Assembly: GCA_022841825.1 (NCBI GenBank) | Contig: JALHQT010000010.1 | Span: forward strand, 62,001 to 126,000 | DNA length: 64,000 nt | Reading direction: 5' to 3' | Source of the DNA: Anaerolineae bacterium | GTDB taxonomy: Bacteria; Chloroflexota; Anaerolineae; Aggregatilineales; Phototrophicaceae | Shown: positions 3,127 to 38,939 of the stretch, one piece after another | Position numbering within the stretch: the stretch's first letter is position 1 | Layout of the letters: each line of letters opens with the position of its first letter | The notes under the pieces: generated by a model | What the model was told of the DNA's origin: nothing | What the model saw: only the letters and a program-made list of their open reading frames with translations | The model's database searches: none | Program-made: the position numbers and the translations under genes

Positions 3127-3741
3127 ATGATGGTGCGCAGAACGAAAGAGGAAGCCGAAGGGACCCGGCAGGCGCTGCTCAAAGCCGCGCTCGCCGTCTT
3201 CAGCCACCAGGGCTATGCCGCCACGCGCCTGGAAGACATCGCCGCAGAAGCAGGCGTGACGCGCGGCGCGATCTACCACCATTTTGGCTCCAAGCCGGAG
3301 CTGTACACCGAGATGGTGGTCGAGTACAGCAAGCCGCTCATGCAAATCGTCGAGGACGCGCTCGCCGCAAGCGGGACGACGACCGAGTTCCTGCGCCGTA
3401 TCTTCATCGATATGTGTGGAGCGATGGAAGACGACGCCGAACTGCGCGCTATTCAGGAGATCAGCACGACCAAGACCGAGATGACGCCGGAGCTTGCCGA
3501 GGGCATCTATACCAAGCTGAACTCAATTGAGCAGCAGGTAAGTTCCCTGACCGAGGGTATAGCGGAAGCAATCGCGCAGGGTGAATTTCGCGCGGAGCAT
3601 GATCCGGAAGATGTCGCCCGCGCCTACTTTTCGTATCTCAACGGTTATATGCTGCTGTGGCTGCTGGATCAATCGGCGTTTTCGATCAAAGCGCGCGCGC
3701 CGCAGATGATCGACATTTTCCTGCGGGGATTGCTCCCTTAA
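3127..3741 (+). CDS. TetR/AcrR-family transcriptional regulator
   Basis: 204 residues. The N-terminal helix-turn-helix is typical: GYAATRLEDIAAEAGVTRG followed by AIYHHFGSKPELY. The remainder is a helical ligand-binding domain of the AcrR kind. The gene's own promoter contains an inverted repeat, and a related repeat precedes the hydrolase gene downstream, so it likely represses itself and that gene. An ATG at 3130 (MVRRTK) is an alternative start one codon later. It ends at an intrinsic terminator. The ligand is unknown. Confidence 0.93.
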   Translation: MMVRRTKEEAEGTRQALLKAALAVFSHQGYAATRLEDIAAEAGVTRGAIYHHFGSKPELYTEMVVEYSKPLMQIVEDALAASGTTTEFLRRIFIDMCGAMEDDAELRAIQEISTTKTEMTPELAEGIYTKLNSIEQQVSSLTEGIAEAIAQGEFRAEHDPEDVARAYFSYLNGYMLLWLLDQSAFSIKARAPQMIDIFLRGLLP

Positions 3742-21749: not shown

Positions 21750-21922
21750 ATCGCTAGGTCTTGTCTGGAGATTGAATTTCCCGGCACAGGCGCGCGATCA
21801 CAAGTCACTCCAATAATACTCGAACTTGCGTTCCAACGTCACCCTGAAACTGCCCCGAGAGTGTAGGAGATGAGGGCGGAATGCACGAGGGCGTGTCGCG
21901 CAATGCGCTTCCCTCACACGGG

Positions 21923-23095
21923 CTACTTCACCGTGATGTAGCGCCAGACGACGAAGATCGCGACCAGGTTGAAGGCGGCGGCGACCAGGCAGTTCGCCAG
22001 CAGTCCGGAAGCGAACAGCACCGGAGCCACCGGCGTCAGTAGCGCGCGCCCCAGCGTCACGGCAGTCATCACGACCGTCAGATACATGGCGCGGGAGTTC
22101 GGACTGAGTTCGGTCGCCAGCGGGATGCTGGCGACGACGCTCAACTCGAACGTCAGATAGAAGAAGAACAGCCCCCCCAGCGCCAGATTCAGGTTTCCAC
22201 CCGTCAGCGGCAGCGCGAGACACGCCGCGATGTTGCCGATCACGCCGATTAGCACCAGGCGGCGCTTGCCGACCTTGTCGGCAAAGGCGGTCACGATGCC
22301 CTCGCCGCCCAGTTCAGACAGCCCGATGACCGCGGCTGCCACCGCCAGCGCCGCCAGTTGAATGCCGAAGGACGCTTCGATCCAGGTGCCAAAGACGACG
22401 CTGACCAGTTGATTGCCCGCGCTGATGCTGAAGCCGAGGCATAACCCGGCAAGCGCCATCGGGCTGCTGATGGCGGTGCGCAGCGCAGGAAGAAAAGCGA
22501 CACGCTGCACGACGGGCGCATCCGCCTCGATCCGCAGCAGCACAACCACGAAGCAGCCCACGACGAGGATCGCCAGCGCCAGAAACGGAGCCTGCCAGTT
22601 GTAGTTTGCGATCAGCCAGGTCATCGCCGGGACGCCAAGCAGAAACGCGCCCGACCACGCCAGCTCGACGAAACCCAGATACAACCCGCGCCGCTGGTAG
22701 GGCACTTTATCGCCAATGTATGCCTGGATCGCCGGGTTGAGCGCTGTCCTGGCGAGCGCGCCGAGCAGCAGGGCAATCGCCAGCCCGGTGAAGTCCGGCA
22801 GGATGAACACGCTGATCATGCCCAGCACATAGAGCAGCAGCCCCAGCAGAATCGTGAATCTGCGCCCGCGCTGTTCGGAGATTCTGCCCATAAACGGCGC
22901 GACCAACCCGAGCAACTGCATGAGCGCCAGGACGCTCACGATGCTGCTGACATCGACCTGCACCCCGCGCGCGAAGACCGGCAGCAGCGGGTAGATCATA
23001 CGAAAGCCCGTGTCAGTGATGGTGCGCGTCCCGGTCAGCAGCACGACCACTGGCAGCATGGGGGATGCCTTCCGCGTTTCGAGTCCAGACATCAT
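21923..23095 (-). CDS. Major facilitator superfamily transporter
   Basis: 390 residues with twelve hydrophobic segments. The cytoplasmic loop between helices 2 and 3 reads GRISEQRGRRFTILLG, close to the MFS signature G-x3-D-R-x-G-R-R/K. A second related loop, ADKVGKRRLVLIG, lies between helices 8 and 9. It is likely a drug or metabolite efflux permease. The 748-base gap upstream is occupied by the iteron-like repeat locus. Confidence 0.88.
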   Translation of the reverse strand: MMSGLETRKASPMLPVVVLLTGTRTITDTGFRMIYPLLPVFARGVQVDVSSIVSVLALMQLLGLVAPFMGRISEQRGRRFTILLGLLLYVLGMISVFILPDFTGLAIALLLGALARTALNPAIQAYIGDKVPYQRRGLYLGFVELAWSGAFLLGVPAMTWLIANYNWQAPFLALAILVVGCFVVVLLRIEADAPVVQRVAFLPALRTAISSPMALAGLCLGFSISAGNQLVSVVFGTWIEASFGIQLAALAVAAAVIGLSELGGEGIVTAFADKVGKRRLVLIGVIGNIAACLALPLTGGNLNLALGGLFFFYLTFELSVVASIPLATELSPNSRAMYLTVVMTAVTLGRALLTPVAPVLFASGLLANCLVAAAFNLVAIFVVWRYITVK

Positions 23096-23190
23096 GATCG
23101 CCGTCCTGAATCGGTGGGAATGGCTAGATGCTCAGTATGCTACACGATCTTGTGGAGGAGTGTTGTCACGGAGCTGCCAGGCGGCGCTTT

Positions 23191-23588
23191 TTATCCCAAG
23201 AATTGTCGCAAAAGTTTTGAACAGAACAAATAATCTGTTCAAAACTTCGACAGGATCACCAAATTCCTGTTCAAAACTCGCGCAGTTTGGGATATCTGCC
23301 TGTTCAAAACTCGGTCGAGCCTGTTCATAACTTTGAACAGGCTGTTCAAAACTCCGACCCCTTTGGGATAAAACATCGCTAGATTACGGATTATTTTCGG
23401 TTTGAACATATGGTCTGTAGAAACTGTTCAAAGTTATGAACAGGACCTGTTCAAAACTTTTGATCGAGATTCCGCGTTATTTCGCAACATTGGGTTATAT
23501 TTTGGGGATATTGGGTTATAATTTCCTTACGAAACGAATTATATCCCCCATCCGTCGTTTATCCCAAAAGTTTTGAACAGTTTCTACA
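23191..23588. repeat. Iteron-like locus of CTGTTCAAAACT and TTATCCCAA repeats
   Basis: Seven copies of CTGTTCAAAACT occur: inverted at 23213-23224 and 23569-23580; direct at 23235, 23267, 23300, 23342 and 23447. Two 20-bp sites, CTGTTCATAACTTTGAACAG (23321-23340) and its exact reverse complement (23424-23443), are also present. Four (T)TATCCCAA words lie at 23191, 23286 (inverted), 23362 (inverted) and 23559. The region is AT-rich with ATTGGGTTATA repeated near 23490 and 23510. No ORF. Downstream to 23843 only a perfect TATAAT (23610-23615) without a clear -35 is seen. Confidence 0.85.
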
Positions 23589-23843
23589 GCCCTACTACTA
23601 CGACTACTCTATAATTCTCTCTTTTAAGAAATGTGATTCTTTTTTAAGAGACAAGGGCAGCAGCACACAAGAACCCTTAAGGATCAACCAGTCCGTAAAT
23701 TCGCCATCTCGCTGCGAAGCAAGCGCCAGGCGACTGCGCCCATGCCTCATCGTTCCGCTTGTCATCTTTTATTACTCCTCTTCTCACTCCGATGCTACAC
23801 TTAAAAACACGCGCAAGATGACTGGGCGCGATTTGAGGGTGTC

Positions 23844-25106
23844 ATGTCGGACAAAATCTCGCAGAAACAGTTAGTCAATCTTGAGCATCGTGTTTCGATC
23901 CTAACGCGGCTGGCAGAAATCAGTACGGTCATCAATTCGACCATGCGCCTGAAACCGCTGCTGGAACACATCATGGCATCTGCCGCGGAGATCACCAACG
24001 CGGAAGCGGCATCCGTCCTGTTATGGGAAAAACGCAGCAACACGCTGCGCTTCGCCGCCACCACGTCGGGCGTCAGCAATTCCCTGCTGGGGAAAGCCGT
24101 GCCGCTGGATGGCAGCATCGCGGGCACGGTCATGCGTGAGCGGCGCGTCGTCGTCGTCAACGAGGTGCGCGCAGAACCACAGCATTTCGACAAGTACGAT
24201 GAAGAGATTCGCTTTCAGACGCGCTCGGTGCTGGGCGTGCCGATGTTCTCGAAAGACCGTGTGATCGGCGTCATCGAAGCCGTCAACCGGCGGAAACTGC
24301 CCTGGACGGAAGACGATGTGCATTACCTCTCGATCCTCGCGGCGCAGGCTGCCGTCGCCATCGAAGGGGCGCAGTTGGTTTCTCGCCTGGAGAGCGCCAA
24401 CCAGGAACTCGAAAAAGTCGATCAGCTCAAGAACGACTTTATCGCGCTCGCCTCACACGAGCTGCGTACCCCGCTCGGCGTCATCCTCGGTTATGCCAGC
24501 TTCCTACAGGAAAGCCAGGACCCGGAAGTGACCGAACACGCTTCCAAGGTCGTCGGCAGCGCGCTCCAGCTTCGACGTATCATCGAAGACCTGACCAATC
24601 TGCGTTATCTTCAGCAGAACGAGGCGGAGCTGATGCGCGAGACGGTGACGCTCGACACGCTGATGAGCGAAATTCTGCCCGACGTGCGCACCTTCGCCGA
24701 GGCAAAGCACCACCGACTGCTGCTCAATATCACCCCTGGCATTCGCATCTATGTCGATCCGATCCGGATCAATATGGCGCTGACCAACATTCTGATGAAT
24801 GCGGTGCGCTTCACCCCCGATGGTGGCGAGATCACGCTGATCGGCGATTTTGCGCCGAAGCGGCAGATGATGCTGATGGTGCGTGACACAGGCATTGGCA
24901 TTGCGCCTGAAGAGATCGGGCGTATCTTCGATAAGTTCTACCAGGTCGAAGACCACATGACACGCCATCATGGCGGCTTGGGCATCGGGTTAAGCCTGGC
25001 AAAAGCGTTGATCGAGGCGCATGGCGGGCGTATTTCGGCGGAGAGCGCCGGCTTGAACAAAGGCTCGACGTTCACCATCATGCTGCCGCTGGCGGATGGC
25101 AAGTAG
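23844..25106 (+). CDS. GAF-domain sensor histidine kinase
   Basis: 420 residues, no membrane helix. GAF domain at about 25-178, short coiled coil, HisKA with phospho-acceptor His205 (ALASHELRTP), then the ATPase domain with N box (NILMNAVRFTPDGG), G1 (DTGIGIAPEE) and G2 (GGLGIGLSLAKALIEAHGG). A soluble cytoplasmic sensor of a small ligand. No response regulator is adjacent; nearest are at 39068 and 48337. The closely similar HisKA/ATPase pattern recurs at the end of the giant kinase at 40046. Confidence 0.93.
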   Translation: MSDKISQKQLVNLEHRVSILTRLAEISTVINSTMRLKPLLEHIMASAAEITNAEAASVLLWEKRSNTLRFAATTSGVSNSLLGKAVPLDGSIAGTVMRERRVVVVNEVRAEPQHFDKYDEEIRFQTRSVLGVPMFSKDRVIGVIEAVNRRKLPWTEDDVHYLSILAAQAAVAIEGAQLVSRLESANQELEKVDQLKNDFIALASHELRTPLGVILGYASFLQESQDPEVTEHASKVVGSALQLRRIIEDLTNLRYLQQNEAELMRETVTLDTLMSEILPDVRTFAEAKHHRLLLNITPGIRIYVDPIRINMALTNILMNAVRFTPDGGEITLIGDFAPKRQMMLMVRDTGIGIAPEEIGRIFDKFYQVEDHMTRHHGGLGIGLSLAKALIEAHGGRISAESAGLNKGSTFTIMLPLADGK

Positions 25107-25263: not shown

Positions 25264-25959
25264 ATGTCAATTGAGGTGACCTGGTTAGGGCATTCGGCGT
25301 TCCAATTTGCCCTGGATGGGCATTCGGTGCTGGTTGATCCGTTCCTGACGGGTAACCCCCTGGCGGCAGCGAGCGCGGACGCGATGAGCGCCGAGATCAT
25401 CTTTCTCTCGCACGCGCATGGCGATCACACGGGCGACGCGCTGATGATCGCCCAGCGGACGGGCGCGAAAATCGTCGCCAACCATGAGATCGCCACTTAC
25501 TACAGCCGTCACAAGAACGTGCAGACGCATGCGCAGAACCCCGGCGGCAGCTTTAATCACGGCTTCGTCACCGCCAAGTGGACGGTCGCTCATCACAGCT
25601 CGTCCTTCCCGGATGGCACCTATGGCGGGCAGCCGAACGGGTTCATCCTGACCTGCCACGACAGCGGGCTGAAGCTCTACTTCGCGGGCGATACCGCGCT
25701 GTTTTCCGACATGAAGCTGATCGGCGACCACAAGATCGACATCGCCTTTCTGCCGATTGGCGACAACTACACGATGGGTATTGACGATTCGGTGCTGGCG
25801 ACGCAGTTCATTCGCCCGCGTTATGTGCTGCCGATGCACTACAATACCTTCCCGCTGATCGCGCAGGATGCCCAGGCATGGGCGCGGCGCATCGCCGCCG
25901 AGACGGACGCGACGCCCGTCGTGCTCGATCCGGGTGGAAGCAAGCGATTTGACGGGTGA
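25264..25959 (+). CDS. Metal-dependent hydrolase, UPF0173/metallo-beta-lactamase fold
   Basis: 231 residues. The metal motif is LSHAHGDHTGD: His50, His52, Asp54 and His55. Further ligands lie in FAGDTALFSDM and PMHYNTFP. Size and WLGHSAFQ start are those of the UPF0173 group, whose physiological substrate is unknown. AAGGAGG precedes the ATG closely. It is 39 bases before a nucleoside phosphorylase gene and likely co-transcribed. Confidence 0.9.
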   Translation: MSIEVTWLGHSAFQFALDGHSVLVDPFLTGNPLAAASADAMSAEIIFLSHAHGDHTGDALMIAQRTGAKIVANHEIATYYSRHKNVQTHAQNPGGSFNHGFVTAKWTVAHHSSSFPDGTYGGQPNGFILTCHDSGLKLYFAGDTALFSDMKLIGDHKIDIAFLPIGDNYTMGIDDSVLATQFIRPRYVLPMHYNTFPLIAQDAQAWARRIAAETDATPVVLDPGGSKRFDG

Positions 25960-38707: not shown

Positions 38708-38939
38708 GATCGATCAAGATCGATAGATGCCCTTGATCCTTTCTCGATCATATCCCAACTTAACCCAAGTAATCCCACGAGCTTGATCGTGATCCGATCT
38801 CGCCCCCCTACGCCCCCCCAACGATCCCGCAAGCGATCGTAAACTCTAGAGGATCTTTCTGAACCGAATATTGATCTGATCTATACCGCGATCAAACCTG
38901 ATAGGGCAGTTTGATTGGGTTTTGCTACTGTTTATGATC
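38708..38939. other. GATC cluster: 15 GATC sites in 232 bp
   Basis: GATC begins at 38708, 38712, 38718, 38735, 38746, 38785, 38791, 38796, 38823, 38835, 38852, 38873, 38878, 38890 and 38936. Many are in the context TTGATC or CGATC. The stretch is AT-richer than its surroundings and contains TATCCCAA (38751-38758). It has no ORF and lies before the response-regulator gene at 39068. Confidence 0.85.
38911..38938 (+). promoter_or_regulatory. Putative promoter for the response regulator
   Basis: TTGATT (38911-38916), 16-base spacer, TATGAT (38933-38938), which overlaps the last GATC. The alternative TATACT at 38958 lacks a -35. Confidence 0.4.

Follow-up and report, generated by a model that had tools for sequence, protein, structure and literature searches.

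An intergenic repeat element and its neighbours

The window, by which we mean the whole 64-kb stretch of Anaerolineae bacterium DNA analysed here, carries a repeat element at 23180-23620. The element is intergenic and lies between an MFS transporter gene on the minus strand and the gene of a GAF-histidine kinase on the plus strand. It contains seven exact copies of the 12-mer CTGTTCAAAACT, spanning 23213-23580, as a sequence-only reading of the same DNA had reported, and four more 12-mers with one or two mismatches. Nested in the 12-mer is the nonamer TTTTGAACA, which resembles a DnaA box: the 12-mer contains TTWTGAACA, one base away from the DnaA box TTWTNCACA. Nine TTWTGAACA words occur in the element and 13 TTWTNNACA words in the whole window; position 6 of the window nonamers is A, instead of the C of the classical TTWTNCACA. 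A second word, TATCCCAA, is interspersed with these boxes.

21923..23095, minus strand: MFS transporter, on the other flank
23180..23620, no strand: whole element, candidate oriC (on clustering, relatives and the relatives' skew)
23191..23199, plus strand: TTATCCCAA box, exact
23215..23223, plus strand: DnaA-box-like TTTTGAACA, facing the next box in opposite orientation
23236..23244, minus strand: TTTTGAACA, array box 1 of 5
23268..23276, minus strand: TTTTGAACA, array box 2, 32 bp further
23287..23295, minus strand: ATATCCCAA box, a variant of TTATCCCAA
23301..23309, minus strand: TTTTGAACA, array box 3, 33 bp further
23322..23330, minus strand: TTATGAACA, array box 4, 21 bp further, within a 21-nt perfect inverted pair
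23343..23351, minus strand: TTTTGAACA, array box 5, 21 bp further
23363..23371, minus strand: TTATCCCAA box, exact
23434..23442, plus strand: TTATGAACA, opening box of the central opposed pair, within the 21-nt perfect inverted pair
23448..23456, minus strand: TTTTGAACA, closing box of the central opposed pair, at the edge of the AT-rich patch
23459..23558, no strand: candidate unwinding region (putative function), moderately AT-rich, with TTGGGTTATA at 23490 and 23511 and TTTTGGGGATAT between them
23559..23567, plus strand: TTATCCCAA box, exact
23571..23579, plus strand: TTTTGAACA, far-side box beyond the AT-rich patch
23844..25106, plus strand: GAF-HisKA-HATPase histidine kinase beside the candidate origin
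25264..25959, plus strand: metallo-beta-lactamase-fold protein; of the 98 loci compared, 31 gave matches, mostly directly after the kinase

The clustering is far above chance. In 500 shuffles of 23171-23620, the 12-mer had a mean count of 0.00 (7 observed), TTWTNNACA a mean of 0.31 and a largest count of 3 (9 observed), and TATCCCAA a mean of 0.01 (4 observed). All seven exact 12-mers of the 5.9-Mb genome lie at the element, with no copy elsewhere and none of the reversed control pattern, so that the cluster is not repeated at many loci. The nine TTWTGAACA words and the confinement of the 12-mer agree with the single box cluster per chromosome expected of an oriC.

What the sequence-only reading had described at the element could be found again. 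Its inverted pairs arise because the boxes occur in both orientations: the two reverse-complement 20-mers form a 21-nt perfect pair (23320-23340/23424-23444), the perfect pair at 23212-23247 is 14 nt long (23212-23225/23234-23247), and the longer pair is a 21-nt pair (95%) at 23412-23432/23572-23592. Three of its four TTATCCCAA words are exact, at 23191 (plus), 23363 (minus) and 23559 (plus); the fourth, at 23287 on the minus strand, reads ATATCCCAA. The AT-rich patch is present and modest, with an AT content of 64-68% in 50-bp windows over 23450-23549 in surrounding DNA of about 60% GC. That reading had overlooked the DnaA-box likeness of the 12-mer core and the TTGGGTTATA repeat. It had taken TTATCCCAA for the DnaA box; we regard the 12-mer core as the better candidate and TTATCCCAA as the second word. 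A structured RNA was rejected: 22900-24000 gave no Rfam match at the gathering threshold. A LexA operator was rejected as well. The LexA box of GAACN4GTTC type is GAACNNNNGTTC, and its sole exact match in the window, at 21822, falls outside the element.

The flanking genes differ in their conservation among 98 genomes of the window's family, which served as the set of relatives. A kinase relative at no less than 45% identity is present in 58 of them, the window's own included, and absent at this identity from 33 genomes of genus g22 and three of g12. The MFS transporter gave no tblastn match at E 1e-10 in the other 97 loci compared; thus the left neighbour is not conserved. The 66 named loci recovered with the kinase query bear labels that are nearly all Chloroflexi or Anaerolineae, among them three Aggregatilineales and one Phototrophicales, together with one Bacteroidetes and one weak Volucribacter match. 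In other Chloroflexota loci (L155, L161, L164, L166, L169, L175), a kinase relative stands divergently beside dnaN, with no array; this arrangement may mean that the kinase has long been adjacent to dnaN.

The array in relatives and its position on the chromosome

By blastn, the element had a match in 33 of the 98 family genomes, the window's own included. The array was surveyed at one locus for each of 57 of the 98, mostly the region upstream of the kinase; seven of these loci (G017, G019, G031, G032, G040, G041, G057) were taken from element blastn matches and are biased towards having the array. Genus g22 accounts for 33, and g12 for three, of the 41 genomes beyond this survey. At least three TTWTNNACA words were found at 54 of the 57 loci, and TATCCCAA in addition at 51; the surveyed loci of G008, G011 and G056 carried no array. 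A loss in relatives, which would have weakened the origin reading, is therefore not what we see. The word TAACCCAA is present at 25 of the 57 loci. GA-type pairs matched in 17 family genomes, each time at one place only, and, with the exception of G062, are absent from g22 and g12; in G050 their place differs from the kinase-side array and is thus a second locus.

In several relatives, the array is linked to replication genes. It lies between dnaN and the kinase at eight loci (L120, L128, L135, L178, L243, L250, L257, L364) from six genomes (G002, G004, G006, G016, G049, G097). At two named MAG loci, L141 and L142, it is flanked by dnaA on one side and the kinase on the other. The layout of L141 is like that of the window: five boxes point the same way, a middle group follows after a gap, and an opposed box stands about 105 bp beyond that group; more words occur at 3530 and 3863. 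L142 resembles it in the middle group and in the box on the far side. The arrays of both loci consist mostly of TTATC[GAT]ACA words (in L141 mostly TTATCGACA and TTATCAACA, with Asn at position 433 of its DnaA), and TATCCCAA is absent from both. Bacterial origins are often linked to dnaA or dnaN, as in Bacillus, an association that is common but not universal. The loci with dnaN or dnaA next to the array tie it to the classical site of such origins. In the window itself this association is missing, since the genome's own dnaA and dnaN are located on another contig, C2.

GC skew was examined in G058, a single contig of 5,631,885 bp, by sampling 40 chunks of 20 kb (800 kb in all). The chunks were negative in 7/7 cases between 1 and 790 kb, positive in 20/22 cases between 834 and 3660 kb, and negative in 11/11 cases from 3780 kb onwards. 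The orthologous element is located at 844.46-845.03 kb, and the cumulative skew, followed in 1-kb steps, climbs from 844 kb; the opposite switch lies about half a genome away. None of the other sampled chunks held an equally dense array, and in G058 the record opens with dnaA, 844 kb away from the element. Contig C9 of G037 gave the same picture, with 10/10 chunks negative to the left of 670 kb, 5/5 positive to the right of 676 kb, and the element in between. Hence the orthologous elements of G058 and G037 lie at the skew minimum, as expected of an oriC. GC skew gave no clear switch in the window, along the contig C10 to which it belongs, or along contig C2 of G036, so that the skew evidence comes from relatives and not from the window's genome.

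Detection of dnaA itself is uneven in the family. In genus g22 (G061-G094), a DnaA DNA-binding domain was found in 6 of 34 genomes and dnaN in 34 of 34, 32 of the 34 being at least 90% complete; either dnaA was lost in much of this genus or it is repeatedly missing from the assemblies. Free-living bacteria devoid of dnaA have been reported in cyanobacteria (PMC7198777). The assembly of G036 (g1) lacks dnaA and yet has an 11-word array, and the retention of this array speaks for assembly gaps in G036. A separate observation concerns a 501-aa protein encoded at L012:4628-6133, on the genome's own contig C4. It has two tandem DnaA/IstB/DnaI-like AAA+ stretches, side-by-side matches that recur in 6/6 relatives searched, and judged from its domains it is a candidate two-domain helicase loader.

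Box variation, DnaA residue 433 and the second word

The classical DnaA box in its relaxed form is TTWTNCACA (excerpts of PMC7561715 and PMC5043019). Positions 5-6 of the array words vary between genomes: among 491 words they read GA in 251, CG in 74, GC in 60, CA in 37, CT in 36 and CC in 2. Four relatives have arrays made mostly of TTWTGCACA, an exact match to TTWTNCACA (G044, 11/11; G057, 10/10; G042, 7/9; G052, 8/12). On this ground we identify the array words as putative DnaA boxes that have drifted at position 6.

D433 of DnaA is described as contacting position 7 of the box and as highly conserved among bacteria (excerpts of PMC8235120). The contacts used here were drawn from later papers, the list of residues (R399, D433, H434, T435) from PMC7561715, and columns were numbered by the E. 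coli sequence. In an alignment of DnaA from 65 of 66 family loci, the D433 equivalent is S in 26, T in 15, K in 9, A in 8, R in 4, Q in 2 and N in 1, and Asp in none. The equivalents of R399, R407 and H434 are each kept in 65/65, and at the T435 equivalent 24 have T and 41 have S; the DnaA of the window's genome has K at 433 and S at 435. By contrast, Asp is found at the 433 equivalent in 46 of 48 distinct outgroup genomes: in 29/29 of one set, which are best Pfam-model matches and biased to the classical form, and in 18/20 of another, hand-picked from mostly weak matches (G107 is in both sets). The exceptions are G201, of the same order, with N, and G160, with S.

The identity of residue 433 appears to be associated with the array dinucleotide. 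The GA share of the array averages 0.01 in the eight Ala-433 genomes versus 0.48-0.76 where the residue is S, T, R or K, and within genus g10 the array of G043 (T) has GA in 10/10 words while that of G044 (A) has GC in 11/11. The link is loose: neither the S nor the T genomes are uniform, and GA does not dominate in G026 (K), in G042 and G097 (R), or in G010 and G020 (T). In the DnaA tree, which has many weak forks, the Ala cases fall in two or three places, with G044 outside the tree. In view of these exceptions and of the few independent origins, the association is used as supporting evidence only.

The second word behaves differently. Upstream of dnaA, TATCCCAA is found in 47 of 51 regions, with 155 sites as opposed to 1.6 in shuffles, whereas DnaA-box-like TTWT[GC]NACA words are not enriched in these regions (13 against 8.1 by chance). 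The 51 regions come from 66 loci, of which 13 failed the reading-frame criterion and two had less than 300 bp upstream; three g12 genomes are among the four without TATCCCAA. Six g22 dnaA loci examined apart, five of them outside the 51, have 3-7 copies each. No copy was found upstream of dnaA in the 20 hand-picked outgroup genomes, where the region covered was 1000 bp in 19 and 230 bp in one. Of the 98 family genomes, 89 contain direct pairs of the word, compared with seven reversed-control matches in all, and among the matches listed for G001-G024 many are 9-11 or about 21 bp apart. Pairs are located upstream of gyrA (L366, L368, L371, L399) and directly downstream of xseA (L362, L365, L393), where L383 has just one copy; in L392 one copy lies upstream of dnaN and a pair directly downstream of the gene, and in L417 a pair lies directly upstream of dnaN. 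Of these genes, gyrA in L399, dnaN in L392 and xseA in L393 were identified by family models, dnaN in L417 by a dnaN search and the rest by their start sequence. The sites at gyrA, dnaN and xseA in relatives form a possible replication-gene regulon. The array regions of G040, G043 and G054 lack TATCCCAA.

Further copies of the word were seen elsewhere. A tandem ATATCCCAA-TTAACCCAA, 10 bp apart, lies at 38750-38768 of the window between surE and a response-regulator-GGDEF gene, which precedes the gene of a 2728-aa GAF-rich histidine kinase; it possibly belongs to the same regulon. G058 has four clustered copies at 4902930-4902983 (L113), away from the origin and from dnaA. The dnaA upstream region at L011:10560-11050 also contains, by eye, palindrome-like TGGG-N10-CCCA sites and a AACCTTAAAA...TTTTAAGGTT hairpin, and TAAGGTTGG recurs in 40 of the 51 dnaA upstream regions.

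A proposed origin, its rivals and known systems

Clustering, uniqueness in the genome, conservation in 54 genomes, coincidence with the skew minimum in two relatives, linkage to dnaA or dnaN in others and the loss of D433 together lead us to regard the element as the very probable chromosomal replication origin (oriC) of this Anaerolineae bacterium; the sequence-only reading, which had offered an origin as one of three possibilities, holds in this respect. It is likely, with somewhat less assurance, that the TTWTGAACA boxes are bound by DnaA. We infer DnaA binding, the unwinding site and the role of TATCCCAA from the layout and its conservation, and propose the following sequence of events. 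DnaA, encoded on contig C2, would bind the nine TTWTGAACA boxes: one opposed box, then five in the same orientation at 21-33 bp spacing, an opposed pair some 90 bp further and, across an AT-rich patch of about 110 bp, a single box. It would oligomerise on the array, with the AT-rich patch as the candidate site of unwinding. The deviation of the boxes from TTWTNCACA at position 6 co-occurs with a recognition helix that lacks the conserved Asp (K here, at the equivalent of E. coli D433). TATCCCAA, which is also present upstream of dnaA and, in relatives, at gyrA and dnaN loci, would probably link initiation with the expression of replication genes, either as a box of the ATP-DnaA type or as the site of another regulator.

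The two words could also be assigned the other way round, with TATCCCAA as the true DnaA box of the oriC and the 12-mers as iterons for a second initiator or regulator. Such an assignment draws on the presence of TATCCCAA upstream of dnaA, where the 12-mer core is not enriched, on its pairs upstream of gyrA and beside dnaN, on the confinement of the 12-mer to the origin in the window's genome, and on the C at position 7 of TTATCCCAA, as in ATP-DnaA or W-type boxes; such a C is given as the mark of ATP-DnaA boxes, position 7 being the one that D433 contacts (excerpts of PMC8235120). We nevertheless find it unlikely: the array words of four relatives are mostly exact TTWTNCACA, the dnaA-linked arrays of L141 and L142 and the array regions of G040, G043 and G054 do without TATCCCAA, and this word stays constant while residue 433 varies. 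Its constancy would be explained equally well by a separate regulator, so that TATCCCAA may be an ATP-DnaA-like box or the site of such a protein. A cell-cycle regulator that binds TATCCCAA and controls the origin together with dnaA, dnaN and gyrA is compatible with the oriC reading, and we give it a substantial chance, if somewhat short of even. CtrA and MtrA provide a model of how it would work; the excess of direct pairs over the reversed control suggests a regulon, and the recurrent spacings fit it too. No candidate regulator was found among the genes inspected beside TATCCCAA sites, however, and DnaA itself would explain the pattern, as the dnaA promoters of other bacteria also carry DnaA boxes. 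More tentatively still, loss of the Asp may have freed box position 6 to drift (GA, GC, CG, CT, CA), while the invariant TATCCCAA was gained and bound by a master regulator tying the origin to dnaA, dnaN and gyrA.

The sequence-only reading had also considered a multi-site operator and a partition centre, and had held that the flanking genes do not explain the repeats. Since the array lies within a few hundred bases upstream of the kinase at most kinase loci examined, an operator of the histidine kinase or of the MFS gene deserves attention. In G017, G031, G032 and G057, however, array and kinase lie apart and are hence not tied to each other, and the kinases of G031 and G032 (the best matches to the window's kinase outside its own genome) have no upstream 12-mer within 2 mismatches; in other relatives it lies beside dnaN or dnaA, and neither this linkage nor the skew would be explained. 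We therefore rejected the operator as main reading and consider it very improbable. A plasmid or chromid origin, or a parS partition centre, seems just as improbable. Although the direct repeats of the 12-mer resemble plasmid iterons, the genes on its two sides encode an MFS transporter and a kinase, and in G058, with one chromosome of 5.6 Mb, the same element occupies the skew minimum, on which ground a plasmid iteron origin was rejected. The parS site is a TGTTTCACGTGAAACA-like palindrome, to which the window has no match within 3 mismatches, and the partition centre was likewise abandoned.

Origins of Anaerolineae appear to be little described: the literature searched, mostly outside subscription journals, contained no description of them or of a code of drifted boxes and a second word. 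The oriC reading offers a way to place origins on the genomes of this group, where the position of dnaA can mislead, and it is directly testable, since one family member, taken to be Phototrophicus methaneseepsis ZRK33, is in culture.

The element shares with classical origins the cluster of DnaA-box-like nonamers and has a modest AT-rich patch, as well as the skew minimum in two relatives and the position beside dnaN or dnaA in several. It differs from them in that its own dnaA and dnaN are on another contig, in the use of TTWTGAACA instead of TTATCCACA, and in the invariant TATCCCAA interspersed. The origin of Caulobacter crescentus has an ATP-DnaA box of TCCC type, KMRTCCCSM (excerpts of PMC8235120), and here too a word of the candidate origin has TCCC and C at position 7. 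Unlike in Caulobacter, this word is invariant and also present at dnaA, dnaN and gyrA loci, and the DnaA of the family is devoid of the Asp that contacts position 7. In Thermotoga maritima, DnaA recognises a 12-bp box and lacks the usual base-contacting residues, according to the excerpts of PMC7561715, with Ser at the D433 position in the sequence of entry 2z4r/2z4s; in both cases, a DnaA without usual base-contacting residues pairs with a non-classical box, but the DnaAs of this family retain the R399 and H434 equivalents and the box is still a TTWTNNACA nonamer. The boxes of epsilonproteobacteria also show a clade-specific change in mid-box, which the authors attribute to substitutions in domain IV (excerpts of PMC5043019). 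Position 5 is fixed as T in that clade, whereas here positions 5-6 vary by genome and almost never read CC. The element would be an origin of a known kind, in this genome detached from dnaA, and what is new is the putative combination of a drifted box, in a family whose DnaA lacks the Asp, with an invariant second word that replication genes share.
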